DNA from: Candidatus Methylacidiphilales bacterium
GTDB taxonomy: Bacteria; Verrucomicrobiota; Verrucomicrobiia; Methylacidiphilales; JAAUTS01
DNA length: 53,666 nucleotides
Assembly (NCBI GenBank): GCA_028713655.1
Contig: JAQTNW010000022.1
Span: forward strand, 1-53,666
Direction of reading: 5' to 3'
The position numbers and the translations under genes were made by a program. Shown here piece after piece: positions 1,378 through 50,356 of this stretch (the stretch's first letter is position 1; every line of letters begins with the position of its first letter). Under the pieces are notes generated by a model. The model did not search any database. It saw only the letters and a program-made list of their open reading frames with translations, and was not told the DNA's origin.

Positions 1378-2139
1378 ATGAAGATCGATCTCTCGGGAAA
1401 AACGGCCCTGGTCACGGGCTCTGCAGGTGAATTGGGCCGGGTTATTTCCCTGACCCTGGCTGAATGCGGGGCCGACGTGGTCCTCCATTACATGAGCAAA
1501 AAGGAACGGGCACTCGAAGTGCAGAAAAAGATCAGGAAGCTGAGACGCCGCGCCTGGATCGTGCAGGCCGACCTGGGTCAGCCTGACGGTGTGAAATCCT
1601 TGCACGCCCAACTGAAAAAGGCCGGTGTTTTTCCCGACATCCTTGTCAATAACGCTGTGAGCCAATATCCGTGGAAACCGGTCTTGAAGCAGTCGCCGGA
1701 AGATTACGAGAGCCAGTTCCGTACCTGTGTGATGCAAAATGTACTCATGGCGCAGGCGTTCGCGCCCTCGATGATCAAAAAGAAATGGGGCCGCATCATC
1801 GCGATTTCAACCGAGTGCGCGATGCAGTGCCTGCCGACCCAATCGGCGTATGTCGCGGGCAAGCGCGGATCCGACGGGGTCTTGCGGGTGCTGGCGCGCG
1901 AAATCGGAAAGCACGGAGTGACTGTCAACCAGGTGGCGCCCGGTTGGACGATCAGTGAGCGCGACCGCCTGAGCGGAACGGAAAGGCAGAAGGCTTATGA
2001 ACGAAATGTTCCGCTGAACCGGCGGGGTGAAGACCGGGAAATCGCACAGGCTGTCGCCTTTCTCGCGTCCGATCTGGCCTCGTTCATCACCGGGGCTTGG
2101 CTTCCGGTCTGCGGCGGGAATGTCATGCCGGCGATTTAG
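1378..2139 (+). CDS. SDR-family oxidoreductase
   Basis: This is a classical short-chain dehydrogenase/reductase of 253 residues with a Rossmann fold. TGSAGELG near residue 14 is the TGxxxGxG cofactor loop, NNAVSQ near residue 90 matches the NNAG motif, and YVAGK near residue 158 holds the catalytic Tyr and Lys. Thirteen residues before the Tyr, where the catalytic Ser normally sits, the sequence reads ISTECAM, with Thr at the usual position and Ser just before it. The C-terminal PGW and FLASDLASFITGAWLPVCGG segments are typical of FabG-like members. The substrate cannot be read from sequence. It stands alone between a repeat array and the integron cassettes. Confidence 0.85.
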   Translation: MKIDLSGKTALVTGSAGELGRVISLTLAECGADVVLHYMSKKERALEVQKKIRKLRRRAWIVQADLGQPDGVKSLHAQLKKAGVFPDILVNNAVSQYPWKPVLKQSPEDYESQFRTCVMQNVLMAQAFAPSMIKKKWGRIIAISTECAMQCLPTQSAYVAGKRGSDGVLRVLAREIGKHGVTVNQVAPGWTISERDRLSGTERQKAYERNVPLNRRGEDREIAQAVAFLASDLASFITGAWLPVCGGNVMPAI

Positions 2140-2345
2140 CAGGACATTGGAGGAGTGGACCGAGCATTTCTGTCAATGTCAAGCCGCCTGCTCGCGACGG
2201 ATGTCGGAGTTGACTCCATTAAACTCAGCAGATCTTACCATCGTTCACCGCGTCCTCTGCTCCCCTCTGTCCTCCCCCGAAGAAAGTAAAACCGCATGAA
2301 AAAACGGAATACCAGAAGTGTCTCAACCCTTGACAATAGCAGCCA

Positions 2346-2444
2346 TATCAACGAAAAAAGCTGAGCCACCGCCGACCCGCGGCGTGAACCGCGACCGCGG
2401 AACTGACCGCGCCAACGGCGGTTGGCTCCGGCGACTTGTTATGT
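2346..2444 (-). other. attC recombination site D (terminal)
   Basis: Read on the minus strand the site runs from ACATAAC (2444-2438) to GTTGATA (2352-2346), 99 bases in all. The inner arms AGCCAACCGCCG and CGGCGGTGGCT pair around a GC-rich loop. The TAA stop of the membrane-protein cassette lies inside the first core box. No further cassette ORF follows it towards the SDR gene, so it is the distal end of the array. Confidence 0.8.
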
Positions 2445-2801
2445 GGCATCGTCATGCTTGGTCATCTTTCGGTTCAGTGGGAAGCTGCGTATAAAAGCTA
2501 ACGCTACCCAAATGATAACAATGTCAAAAATGATATGAGCCAGACTGCGTGGGCCGACCCAAAGCCGATACCCGGTATCCACAAGCATAACTACGCCAAT
2601 GCAAGCAAAGAAAAGCTGACACCACCTCGACCCACGACTTAAAGCAAATATCGCGCAGAAAGTAAACGACCATCCCAAAATGCTCAAGATGTAGCTCATC
2701 GTGGAAACGTGGTAAGGCAAATCTCCACGAAGCTGGCTAGGCAGTCCAGCCAACAACATCAACACCGGAATCAGAAGCAGCCAAGGTGTGAATGATTTCA
2801 T
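2439..2801 (-). CDS. cassette-encoded small membrane protein
   Basis: The 120-residue product has four predicted hydrophobic spans: FTPWLLLIPVLMLLAGL near the N-terminus, a stretch around YILSILGWSFTFCAIFAL, another around CQLFFACIGVVMLV, and AHIIFDIVIIWVALAFI near the end, followed by a charged tail. I chose ATG 2801 because it is the first ATG after the attC core at 2816-2822; the longer frame would put its first eleven codons in and around the attC. The stop TAA falls in the core box of attC D. I do not recognise the family, and the function is unknown. A small polytopic membrane protein is a common type of cassette cargo. Confidence 0.7.
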   Translation of the reverse strand: MKSFTPWLLLIPVLMLLAGLPSQLRGDLPYHVSTMSYILSILGWSFTFCAIFALSRGSRWCQLFFACIGVVMLVDTGYRLWVGPRSLAHIIFDIVIIWVALAFIRSFPLNRKMTKHDDAT

Positions 2802-2815
2802 AAGCGTGTGCTGCC

Positions 2816-2914
2816 GCCTAACGATGGAACTCACACACGCCGGGCCAAATGACGCTGCCCGCGAAGCGGAACTGCGACGGCCATCCGGCGTTGTGTGCAG
2901 TGATCTGGTTAGGC
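2816..2914 (-). other. attC recombination site C
   Basis: The 99-base site is bounded by a perfect pair of cores, GCCTAAC and GTTAGGC, at its two ends. The arms GCACACAACGCCGG and CCCGGCGTGTGTGAG pair, and a small inner hairpin (CCGCTTCGCGG) forms the tip. The stop TAA of the upstream cassette gene (2909-2911) is within the first core box. This is the clearest attC in the window. Confidence 0.92.
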
Positions 2915-3403
2915 CACATTTGGCGTCTCCACATAGTATGGTGGAAATAATCTTCCGACTGGCTTCTTCGGTAAACGCCCTCGCTGCTGTATGGACTCAA
3001 TGTGATGGTCACGACAAAACACACTAAGTCGTAATGCACGCTGCTGGCAACCTTCGATTCGGCATGGTGAGTCGCCAACCTCGAACTTGGAACGAGCGAA
3101 CAAATCGCGCATGACGGCTGAATAAATCATCATGGCTGCGGGTTGCTGATACGGTTCGCGCTCCCACTCCGCGACCTCAATCGGTGGAACCTGAAACAAA
3201 TACTCCTGATCCGCGAAATTCCACTCATGACCGCTCTGCCAAAGCTGGCCGCAATCAGGGCAGCGAAACAGATAAATCCGCAGCTCGGTGTTCTCTGCAA
3301 TCTGGGTAAGACGCTTGCGAATTGCCGGCGACTGTTTGATGCGCCGAGTGATGCTCTGGCGATCAAGCTCGATGGGCTGAAATTGGGCGCAATCGCAAGG
3401 CAT
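2909..3403 (-). CDS. cassette-encoded cysteine-rich protein, putative zinc binding
   Basis: The 164-residue soluble protein begins MPCDCAQFQPIELDR, with a CxC pair at residues 3-5. It carries FRCPDCGQLWQ near residue 53, then CRIEGCQQRA and VFCRDHH near residues 118-138. The CxC plus CPDCG and the later C-x4-C...C-x2-HH cluster look like two zinc sites, but I cannot name the family. Its ATG lies 14 nt after attC core GTTAGGC (3423-3417) and its stop TAA lies inside the core of attC C, so the gene fills its cassette exactly. Function unknown; metal binding is inferred from the cysteine spacing only. Confidence 0.75.
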   Translation of the reverse strand: MPCDCAQFQPIELDRQSITRRIKQSPAIRKRLTQIAENTELRIYLFRCPDCGQLWQSGHEWNFADQEYLFQVPPIEVAEWEREPYQQPAAMMIYSAVMRDLFARSKFEVGDSPCRIEGCQQRALRLSVFCRDHHIESIQQRGRLPKKPVGRLFPPYYVETPNVA

Positions 3404-3416
3404 GGTGTGTTTTGTG

Positions 3417-3536
3417 GCCTAACGACATCGATGACTCAAGACCACTTGGTTCTGGCACTGGCCATGCTTCCGCATGGACTGTGACAGAACTTCGAGCGTA
3501 GCGAGAATGGTCTTTGAGTCCATCGACTGGTTCGGT
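3417..3536 (-). other. attC recombination site B
   Basis: At 120 bases this is the longest attC here, from ACCGAAC (3536-3530) to GTTAGGC (3423-3417) on the minus strand. The long arms CGATGGACTCAAAGACCATT and AAGTGGTCTTGAGTCATCG pair with small bulges, and a second hairpin (CCATGCGGAAGCATGG) forms the tip. It separates the exported-protein cassette from the zinc-protein cassette. Confidence 0.9.
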
Positions 3537-3539
3537 GTT

Positions 3540-3992
3540 TTATTTCAAGGCTTCCCCTTTTGCATTGACCTTCGACAGTGATAAAACAATAGAAAGGCCG
3601 TCGCCCAAATCCGTTTTTACATCCTTTCCGGCTTCACTCAAGCCGGACAACATAAATTCTTGTGTTTTAAAGAAAGAAACGGATTGGGTTGCCTCATCCT
3701 TTGTCTTTTGACGCTCCCGAAGAGTCAAGAGACATGAGTACTTTATCTTTCCGTCTTTGAAATCGGCAATGGAATCAAAAATGATGCCAACGGGTAAAGA
3801 TCGGTTTCCTGGATCTTTATAATCCTGGGTCACGGCGAGCTGACTGGCCTTCCCGGGAAGCACAATCACAGAAGGTGTTTGCATGGTATTGCCGTCACGA
3901 AGGACCTTTAGGGCAATACGAATGTGGTCAACTTCGGCATGTGCTGTGACAAGCGAAAGGGATGCCAAAACAATGGTTAGTATAATTTTCAT
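3540..3992 (-). CDS. cassette-encoded exported protein of unknown function
   Basis: The 150-residue product starts MKIILTIVLASLSLVTAHAE, a clear Sec signal peptide with likely cleavage after AHA. The mature part is a mixed alpha/beta domain of about 130 residues without cysteines and with many Lys, Asp and Ser residues. I see no catalytic motif. ATG 3992 is 8 nt after the core of attC A, and the TAA (3540-3542) is just before the core of attC B. The segment SVIVLPGKASQL...LPVGIIFDSIADFKDGKIKYS suggests a beta-sandwich of periplasmic type, but that is a guess. Cassette proteins with signal peptides are frequent in environmental integrons. Confidence 0.75.
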   Translation of the reverse strand: MKIILTIVLASLSLVTAHAEVDHIRIALKVLRDGNTMQTPSVIVLPGKASQLAVTQDYKDPGNRSLPVGIIFDSIADFKDGKIKYSCLLTLRERQKTKDEATQSVSFFKTQEFMLSGLSEAGKDVKTDLGDGLSIVLSLSKVNAKGEALK

Positions 3993-3995
3993 ATT

Positions 3996-4484
3996 TTACA
4001 CCGAACGACCAGGATGAGCCATGACGAGGAGAGCGTCACTGGCGTTCGATTGAAACCGTGACCTGACCGCGCTCCTCGTAATTGGCTCGATCCGCTGGTT
4101 AGCTTTTTTTCCGAATACCTCATCATAAACTTTCGCCTGGTAGATGTCGTGCAACATCTCCCCGTGGGTGTTGTTCAGGCGTACAACGCCACTGGCATCT
4201 TCGAAACTCAAGACAAGCTGCCCCTTTTCTTCGCGGCTCTCGATAGCACGCACACCGTCGAGAACTCCCAACATCCCGAAAATGGCCGCATGGACAGATC
4301 GCGTGACAATCGTCCGAACAATCTCTTGCTCTTCTTGCTTAAGGCCGCCGAACCATTGAGACGCCGCAACAAGGCTAGCTCTCGGCTGCCGCCCACTTGG
4401 CTTTCGCAGCGACGACTCGATACCGATGATGGCGGAATCGTGAACCACGATCTTGAGGGCGTCGATGAACTCGTCAGCGTTCAT
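3996..4484 (-). CDS. cassette-encoded hypothetical protein whose frame reads through attC
   Basis: The 162-residue product begins MNADEFIDALKIVVHDSAI and contains a conserved-looking core (ASQWFGGLKQEEQEIVRTI, FGMLGVLDGVRAIE, LNNTHGEMLHDIYQ). It resembles small uncharacterised alpha/beta proteins that I recall from many bacteria, but no function is known to me. The family-like part ends near KVYDEVFGKK. The last roughly 37 residues, from ANQRIEPI to HPGRSV, are encoded by attC A itself (4104-4000), and the stop TAA at 3996-3998 lies only four bases before the ATG of the next cassette gene. This is the first cassette after the attI-like site, the position usually best expressed. Confidence 0.75.
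   Translation of the reverse strand: MNADEFIDALKIVVHDSAIIGIESSLRKPSGRQPRASLVAASQWFGGLKQEEQEIVRTIVTRSVHAAIFGMLGVLDGVRAIESREEKGQLVLSFEDASGVVRLNNTHGEMLHDIYQAKVYDEVFGKKANQRIEPITRSAVRSRFQSNASDALLVMAHPGRSV
4000..4104 (-). other. attC recombination site A
   Basis: This 105-base site runs from AGCTAAC (4104-4098) to GTTCGGT (4006-4000) on the minus strand. Arms GAGCCAATTACGAGGAGCG and CTCTCCTCGTCATGGCTC pair, with single unpaired bases as usual in attC. The upstream ORF has no stop before it and is translated through the whole site. Confidence 0.9.
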
Positions 4485-4491
4485 TTCTTTT

Positions 4492-4563
4492 GGCTAACAG
4501 TTTTATTGAACCACCGGTGCTTGTATCCTGATCAAGCGCACTAGTGCTGTATCACGGATCAAG
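4492..4563 (-). other. attI-like site: lone core GTTAGCC with two upstream direct repeats
   Basis: Ahead of the first cassette gene the minus strand has a lone core, GTTAGCC (4498-4492), eight bases before the ATG. Unlike the four attC sites it is not followed outward by a palindrome. Instead there are two 20-base near-identical direct repeats, GTGCTTGTATCCTGATCAAG at 4517-4536 and GTGCTGTATCACGGATCAAG at 4544-4563 (plus-strand spelling). A simple core plus two direct integrase-binding repeats is the known layout of attI. The integrase gene expected beyond it is absent. Confidence 0.5.
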
Positions 4564-4883
4564 GCAACCTGTAAGGGCAGGCTTTGCTTATGGCATTGCA
4601 TTCCTGAAACTTACACCCGCATGCACCTCCAAAACAAGGTGAAATTGGGTGTAAACTCCAGGTTTAAAGTTCGCTCTGGCGAATCCGTCCGGTGCCGGAT
4701 TTTCAGTGTTGAGTTTCAAGTTGGCTGTCAGTTATCTGCATGAATCCGCGTTCAGCTGCGGTTGAAACGGATTCCTTTGCGGGGTGGGCGAGCTTGGCGC
4801 GAAACCCAATCCCTTTTTCTTCCCACTTGTCAGTTTTGATGGTGCAAACGCTCTGCCGGGTGGTAAAACGGAGCGGGTGTAAA
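4564..4883. repeat. gap with a symmetric 60-bp dyad at 4603-4662
   Basis: This gap lies where an integrase gene would be expected and has no credible ORF. It holds one notable structure. CCTG (4603-4606) and TTACACCC (4611-4618) pair with GGGTGTAA (4647-4654) and CAGG (4659-4662). Inside, CACCT (4624-4628) pairs with AGGTG (4637-4641) around an 8-base loop. The internal loops are exactly 4/4 and 5/5 bases, so the element is symmetric over 60 bp. It could be a protein-binding dyad, a terminator without a T-tract, or an attachment-like site. Confidence 0.55.
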
Positions 4884-5651
4884 ATGCAGATCCTGAGAAA
4901 AATACTGAACCACGTTCCAGGTCTGAAACGCCTGTTGAGGCCGCTGTATTACCATCTGCACTGCCTTTTTTATGGAATACCACCCGTGTCCGACTCCGGA
5001 ATCAGCAGGGAACTGATTCGGGACTGCGTCGGCAGGGAAGACCCCACGATTCTTGAGATTGGCTGCAATGACGGGACCGACACCCTCAGGTTTCTTGAGA
5101 TGTTCAAAAACCCGAAAATTTATTGCTTCGAACCCGATCCGCGCGCAATCGCCCGCTTCAAGGCGAAGGTCGGAGAGCGTTCCAATGTCCACCTCTATGA
5201 GATGGCCTTGAGCGACCGCAATGGTGAGGCCACATTTTACCAAAGCGGCGGCCGGAAAAACGTGGAATCGGCCCAGGCAATGCCCGAAGGATGGGACATG
5301 TCAGGATCAATCCGCCCACCCAAGGAACATCTCAAGGTAAACCCATGGGTTACATTTGACCGGAAAATATCCGTTCGCACATCGACTTTGGATTCCTGGC
5401 TCAGAACGCAGGGCATCGCGACTGTTGATTTCATCTGGCTGGATGTCCAGGGTGCGGAGATGGACGTATTTCGCGGCGGCAGCAACACCCTGGCAAGCAC
5501 GCGTTTTATTTACACCGAATACAGCAATCAGGAATTATACAAGGGCCAGCCGAATTTGAGGCAGTTGATGAAGTATCTAAGGGAATTTAATTTTGATATC
5601 CTGGCCCGATACCGCAATGACGTGCTGTTTGTGAACAAGCGATTTGCGTGA
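4884..5651 (+). CDS. FkbM-family SAM-dependent methyltransferase
   Basis: The 255-residue product has ILEIGCNDGTDT (SAM-binding motif I) near residue 60, CFEPDP (acidic end of strand 2) near residue 83, and FIWLDVQGAEMDVFRGG near residue 190, the DVxGxE motif characteristic of FkbM methyltransferases. Such enzymes usually O-methylate sugars or small hydroxyl groups on surface glycans. I chose ATG 4884 because GGAG sits about 10 bases upstream and the product then starts MQILRKILNHVPGLKRLL; the longer frame from 4740 adds 48 residues without a family pattern. It lies beside the cassette array, with only 9 bp to the convergent lpd stop. The acceptor is unknown. Confidence 0.85.
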   Translation: MQILRKILNHVPGLKRLLRPLYYHLHCLFYGIPPVSDSGISRELIRDCVGREDPTILEIGCNDGTDTLRFLEMFKNPKIYCFEPDPRAIARFKAKVGERSNVHLYEMALSDRNGEATFYQSGGRKNVESAQAMPEGWDMSGSIRPPKEHLKVNPWVTFDRKISVRTSTLDSWLRTQGIATVDFIWLDVQGAEMDVFRGGSNTLASTRFIYTEYSNQELYKGQPNLRQLMKYLREFNFDILARYRNDVLFVNKRFA

Positions 5652-25876: not shown

Positions 25877-26155
25877 AGTTTAAAGGTTGGGTTGCCTGGC
25901 CCGATAGAGACGGAAACGGTTCTTTGAAAGATTTCGGGGCCATGCCGATTCTCAAACCGGCGTGATCCAAAAAATTTCCCTGCAGTGTTCGTGTACCGGA
26001 TGTTACGCTTTCGACCGATATAACAATAATGGGACACAAGCGCGGAACCTTCTCCGATGCCATGCCTTTACTGGAAGGCAGCACGGGAACGCGCCGTCCC
26101 CCCTTTAACGGAGGGTAGAAAGACCTCATCCTAACGGCACAGGCGGGGATTTTTT
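25877..26155. other. convergent gap without a recognisable gene
   Basis: These 279 bp separate the ends of pheT and the AsmA-like gene. I see no ORF with family character. Near the right end a T8 run (26151-26158) follows GGCACAGGCGGGGA, which may act as termination signal for the plus strand, but no strong stem precedes it. Confidence 0.4.
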
Positions 26156-49884: not shown

Positions 49885-49892
49885 CATTCAAC

Positions 49893-50302
49893 TGAGGCGA
49901 TAAGCCGAATTCTGTCCGCCGGTTTTCACCGGCGTGATGATCATTTATCTTGCCCCGCCTTGCGGCTGGACATCCGGCTTTTGCCGGATGCGGCCTACCC
50001 GGAAGCTCCCCGCCTTGCGGCGGAAACGACTGGCCGCCATGCTTCCTGTTCGGCCTTGCACCATCCGGGGTTTATCGTGCCTCCTCGATTACTCTCGGAG
50101 CGGTGGGCTCTTACCCCGCCGTTTCACCCTTGTCACGCCTCTGCCTTTCGGCTCGGGCGGACGGTTTGTTTTCTGTGACACTGTCCGTCATCCCCGGTTT
50201 TCACCAAGGATGCCCGCGAATTCTTCGCGGCGGATTGCCATGTGGTGTTCGGACTTTCCTCCCGCAAAAGCAGTACACTTCAGCGGGCGATCATCTGCCT
50301 CA
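49893..50302 (-). ncRNA. rnpB: RNase P RNA (bacterial type A)
   Basis: On the minus strand the 410-nt RNA begins TGAGGCAGATGATCGCCCGC and ends with ACAGAATTCGGCTTATCGCC. Universal elements are present: GAGGAAAGTCCGAACACCAC near the 5' end, AGGGTGAAACGGCGGGGTAA and GAGCCCACCGCTCC in the middle, CGATAAACCCC, GGCAAGATAAATGA, and CAGAATTCGGCTTA near the 3' end. TGAGGC and GCCTCA pair as P1. The RNA is the catalytic part of RNase P, which trims tRNA 5' ends. It follows ligA by 54 bp, a T9 run lies just upstream, and no promoter consensus is obvious. Confidence 0.96.
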
Positions 50303-50356
50303 AGAAACAGTCTGCCTGTTTGCGCGGAAAAAAAAAGCCAATTCGATTGGGAAATA

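Follow-up and report, generated by a model that had tools for sequence, protein, structure and literature searches.

Integrons are already on record from Verrucomicrobiota, which stand on the list of phyla that have them, and for the origin of CALINs three routes have been proposed, namely off-target insertion, loss of intI and rearrangement (PMC8618304). In Xanthomonas the decayed integrons belong to the ilvD locus, and CALINs are found elsewhere in about half of the genomes (PMC12444791). A close comparison for the entry site is that of the class 2 integron, whose minimal attI2 site is AATAAAATG/TTRRRY (PMC12901181; a slash stands for the crossover in all core sequences given here).

Verrucomicrobial integrons and CALINs having been reported before, the locus described here is a further example and not a new kind of element, and the view of the preliminary description that cassettes in such hosts are little described was only partly fair. 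The locus lies in what is called the window below, the whole of contig C22 (53,666 nucleotides) of a 3.29 Mb genome (90 contigs, 95% complete) from a Candidatus Methylacidiphilales bacterium. Its four cassettes and four attC sites (Table 1) are flanked by genes for an SDR and for an FkbM methyltransferase. The window also carries a 6S RNA (25974-26153, 48 bits, just above the cut-off) and a class A RNase P RNA (49885-50306, 205 bits). Like a CALIN, the array has at least two attC sites and few cassettes, which all point the same way, and it lacks an intI in its vicinity; it differs from a CALIN in retaining an attI-like site at its entry end and in belonging to a genome in which an intI survives intact, along with some ten further arrays. 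With the decayed integrons of Xanthomonas it has in common chromosomal arrays with a lost or broken intI, some of them CALINs off the main locus, whereas its host is verrucomicrobial and several attI types occur within one genome. The array had at first been called CALIN-like, which holds for the cassettes, the attC anatomy and the orientation but not for a bare cluster, the attI-like site at 4498 having been missed. This site makes a decayed integron likelier than a stray cassette cluster, and we consider it probable that the locus is a sedentary chromosomal integron from which intI has been lost. Since no intI is adjacent, the locus is filed as a relic rather than as a complete integron.

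Table 1. Features of the array and its flanks in the window. ORF, open reading frame; R1 and R2, covariance models (see text); z, fold z-score of the array bottom strand as single-stranded DNA relative to dinucleotide shuffles.
Feature	Position	Strand	Basis or remark
Leader upstream of attI	4592-4750		Common to C67 array: 73% gapped, 90% in core
attI-like entry site	4498-4562	-	81% identity to C26 site; attI-type core
Cassette 1, 492 bp, attI-proximal	4006-4497	-	Crossovers at attI and attC 4000-4104
ORF 1, 162 aa	3996-4484	-	Gene proper is residues 1-118; final ~35 aa come from reading through attC
attC of cassette 1	4000-4104	-	R2 40.4 bits, R1 51.7 bits, z -5.5
Cassette 2, 583 bp	3423-4005	-	Crossover positions
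ORF 2, 150 aa, signal-peptide-like N-terminus	3540-3992	-	Sequence
attC of cassette 2	3417-3536	-	R2 53.0 bits, z -6.2
Cassette 3, 601 bp	2822-3422	-	Crossover positions
ORF 3, 164 aa, zinc-ribbon-like cysteines	2909-3403	-	Sequence
attC of cassette 3	2816-2914	-	R2 38.5 bits, z -4.0
Cassette 4, 470 bp, last of array	2352-2821	-	Crossover positions
ORF 4, 120 aa, hydrophobic	2439-2801	-	Sequence
Terminal attC (cassette 4), R' degenerate	2346-2444	-	R2 16.8 bits, R1 55.5 bits, z -3.0
Distal flank, SDR gene 3' part and downstream DNA	1732-2217		Duplicate beyond C67 array

When both core boxes were searched for with strict regular expressions, a single window site was recovered, and a relaxed scan for core and stem recovered all four together with chance matches. 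As such scans were too strict or too unspecific, two covariance models of our own, R1 and R2, were used in place of the IntegronFinder model. R2 was built from 17 sites from elsewhere in the genome; neither the window sites nor any near-identical copy of them went into it. With filters off, it recovered all four window sites, clustered inside 1.8 kb, on the minus strand only, against a background of 4-8 bits. In the region around them nothing else scored higher than 7.5 bits, which is also the maximum for the sites read on the plus strand. A scan of the full 53.7 kb under default filters recovered three of the four sites, along with one chance partial match. The R'' (RYYYAAC) and R' (GTTRRRY) boxes and the L''/L' stem are present, and the L'' arm has unpaired (extrahelical) extra bases, like known attC sites. 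The four palindromes that the preliminary description had picked out, and for which it had proposed folding of the bottom strands, thus stand with scores of 16.8-53.0 bits in R2 and negative fold z-scores throughout; its account of the core boxes holds except for the last R'. This box reads GTTGATA and so deviates from GTTRRRY, which is part of the reason why the site at 2346-2444 is the weakest. In the terminal attC of an array, the R' half is supplied by the old insertion site.

It is confirmed that the four minus-strand attC sites are real. It is extremely improbable that they are instead an assembly artefact, or the terminators or fortuitous palindromes of an ordinary minus-strand operon. 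The host is indeed a draft genome, and attC sites that resemble one another can lead assembly astray (PMC9024848), but the model scores are independent of the window sites and differ between the strands, and chromosomal genes flank the array at both ends within a single contig. Moreover, in an alignment of 23 sites 83% of the pairs are standard, and compensatory changes are frequent: both sides have changed in 95 cells (shuffled mean 40), and the covariation score is 0.418 as compared with 0.159 after shuffling, falling below 0.1 when the pairing is shifted by one to three columns. Copies of the sites also occur beside other genes: the attC of cassette 2 is 92-95% identical to two attC sites on contig C44, and that of cassette 4 is 93% identical to one. 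From this likeness it follows that the two arrays have shared cassettes or attC sites. Finally, attC matches (E <= 0.01) are present in seven of the 62 genomes of the order and in none of the other 55, many sites being found only in the source genome, G001 and G011. The attC type of cassette 1 is also present in G143 and G167.

Crossovers (G/TT on the minus strand) at 4498, 4006, 3423, 2822 and 2352 delimit the cassettes. The alternation of four minus-strand ORFs with the attC sites had been seen correctly, with one ORF per cassette in array orientation. Placing start and stop codons right at the cores was apt for the starts, 13-20 nt past the crossover, and for three of the four stops, which lie at or within R'', but not for ORF 1, which has no stop ahead of attC and reads through it. 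None of the four products gave anything above the cut-off in Pfam or NCBIfam, or a match in PADLOC. The relatives of ORF 1 terminate at about residue 118, and up to this residue ORF 1 is 44% identical to L150:1498-1854 and 40% identical to L151:455-814. Both relatives are located directly 3' of an RHS gene (core domain TIGR03696, 71 and 62 bits, cut-off 32.5), the two RHS proteins having a C-terminal domain in common, and a relative on a Vibrio plasmid has small ORFs around it, a MafI-family immunity gene being one of them. Judged from these neighbourhoods, the product of cassette 1 is a candidate RHS-type immunity protein; the predicted fold of the family (pLDDT 43.5) was too poor for a structure search. 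The RHS genes with their cassette 1 relatives (L150:1498-3188 and L151:455-1762) are themselves candidate toxin-immunity pairs.

The product of cassette 2 looks secreted. Its relatives in G085 and G228 are 38-43% identical, and a weak relative is found in G001 on contig C227, which bears attC sites. ORF 3 is 61% identical to L144:1489-1968, a relative that is a cassette too, an attC following it; no plasmid relative of cassette 3 was found. The product of cassette 4 is likely to be a membrane protein, for which there is one weak relative among 286 genomes of the class.

At its proximal end the array appears to have an attI. The core, on the minus strand, is AATAAAACTG/TTAGCC (also given as GGTTCAATAAAACTG/TTAGCC; in fuller form GCACCGGTGGTTCAATAAAACTG/TTAGCC), and two palindromic repeats, GCACCGGTG and GCACTAGTGC, are found upstream of it. 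The assignment is based on a single 69-bp match, window 4494-4562 to C26:1288-1356 (81% identity), and on a common core motif. A similar core is present at the other recognisable array starts, which are those on C30, C6, C63, C67, C23 and C2, two on C7, and those in G001 and G011. The core is nearly identical to that of attI2, the likeness being confined to this short stretch; the window differs in having no class 2 integrase and in having palindromic repeats upstream of the core. On C26 the C-terminus of an IntI lies about 230 bp beyond the attI match and is directed away from the array, as is expected of intI.

These findings bear on the possibility that the IntI of the genome inserted a cassette at a non-attI (attG-type) site and that a CALIN was then built up by further cassettes. 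Such insertion has been shown experimentally (Loot et al. 2024, as cited in PMC12901181 and PMC12444791), off-target insertion is among the proposed routes to CALINs (PMC8618304), an intact IntI exists in the genome, and there is no intI remnant beside the window array. Still, we regard this origin as unlikely, as the entry site has 69 bp of homology with one beside an IntI fragment and has a core that is common to other assembled entry sites, which would not be expected of unrelated chromosomal targets.

According to the reading that we prefer, a sedentary integron that lost intI, the cassettes would have entered singly at 4498 by IntI-mediated recombination of attI with the bottom strand of attC, in consequence of which all of them read leftwards from attI. 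The intI gene, expected just to the right of attI on the plus strand, would later have been deleted without detectable trace. A profile search with TIGR02249 found no intI anywhere on C22, in agreement with the claim that the 53 kb encode no IntI, and no remnant of the gene was detected in window 4400-5400 (best E 2.6); both the former intI of the locus and its loss are therefore what we infer. In some other phyla intI is oriented with its 3' end at attI. Such an arrangement was rejected here in view of the usual divergent one at C30 and C26, and window 4590-4655, which was considered as a remnant of an IntI C-terminus (ETYTRMHLQNKVKLGVNS), gave no significant match and is part of the leader repeated at C67 and C23.

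The term integrase-less, applied to the array at first, is correct for the locus but not for the genome. A search of the latter for intI and attC, as had been proposed, revealed an intact IntI on C30 (457 aa, L021:2786-4159, G000:C30), adjoining an array of its own, and, with R1, about 50 attC sites spread over 13 contigs. TIGR02249 matches C30 at 3215-4156 with 424 bits (cut-off 265), and the IntI is full length, with the SGLRL, HTLRHSF and MIYTHV motifs kept. Its next best relatives are records (L050-L052) of Chthoniobacterales, Chthoniobacter and Verrucomicrobia, and on this ground we take the host to be verrucomicrobial, as the preliminary description had proposed. The C30 integron resembles the window array in attC family, array orientation and attI core motif and differs from it in retaining IntI and in having an attI of another palindrome type. 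Perhaps the window attI and its cassettes are usable in trans by the C30 integrase, which could still excise or exchange them.

Other arrays of the genome are in different states. C26 retains the exact C-terminus of an IntI (21 aa, E 4.8e-9) in the usual divergent orientation, and the C30 attI recurs without intI on C6 (86% identity over 132 bp) and C63 (83% over 119 bp). Weaker partial matches on C14, at the far end of C30 and on C61 may be to IntI or to other tyrosine recombinases. The C14 match (L025:6835-7044; 50 bits) is an open frame encoding the N-terminal portion of a protein that resembles integron integrases, and no attC was found near it. In G011, which belongs to another family of the order, there is a cassette array with an attI-like start (L137:3400-5400, G011:C13), and no intI over the cut-off anywhere in that genome; beside the attI there is a weak match (E 0.044), possibly to a degenerate IntI N-terminus.

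The genome has several attI types, each with its own palindrome upstream of the core. When the best palindrome scores were compared with those of 20,000 random 52-bp stretches, p with no loop ranged from 0.0006 (C30, C6, C7) to 0.053 (window, C26, C23, C63, G001), so that the window palindromes are not significant by themselves. Across 57 other IntI loci no clear enrichment of palindromes upstream of intI was seen. The catalytic part of the C30 IntI aligns to IntI4 (PDB 2a3v), and N-terminal to it there is an extension of about 140 residues with a predicted helical domain (about 85 residues at pLDDT >= 90), the best structural match of which is again IntI4 (2a3v; E 4.6e-3, TM 0.50); the extension is predicted to be a second core-binding domain. 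Another 22 IntI proteins, from several phyla, are similarly long (>430 aa), and a link of the palindromes to long IntI is a suggestion only. It is a tentative and rather doubtful idea that we are dealing with an integron lineage in which variable palindromes directly upstream of the attI core might be read by the N-terminal domain of a long IntI; the genome would then have four attI types (window/C26; C30/C6/C63; C67/C23/C2; C7), mostly orphaned from their integrases and usable in trans.

The flanks of the array are also found elsewhere. C67 (L044:5715-7877) is collinear with the window in the order SDR 3' fragment, array, leader; its distal flank is 97.7% identical to that of the window over 487 bp, and its cassettes and attI type differ. 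Window 4573-4651 is 82% identical to a flank on C23. A dispersed repeat, matched about 20 more times in the genome, has a copy at window 4662-4720. A sigma-70 scan of 2100-5000 found no promoter in the attI leader (four hits in all, as compared with 2.0, sd 1.5, in shuffles).

We read the likeness of C67 and the window as the outcome of a segmental duplication after which the cassettes turned over, an assembly error being the alternative. The window array itself might have been copied or split from another array by segmental duplication or inter-array recombination and never have had an intI of its own. For this speak the collinear partial copy on C67 and the two consecutive arrays on C7 (L046:8250-10600), each with its own attI leader, the two leaders being 97% identical over 215 bp with a long palindrome inside. 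It should be noted, however, that the SDR gene is truncated at C67 and complete in the window, so that of the two the window appears to be the source and C67 its copy, and that the window attI is nearest to that of C26, not to that of C67. Such an origin is therefore quite improbable.

The genome thus has possible stages of integron decay together: the intact integron on C30, the last 21 IntI residues on C26, and the window, C6 and C63 with attI and no detectable intI, to which C67 adds a duplicated locus with exchanged cassettes. Loss of intI with retention of attI can thereby be tested in a phylum that has been sampled little, and the candidate immunity gene gives a hint of what arrays of this sort store.
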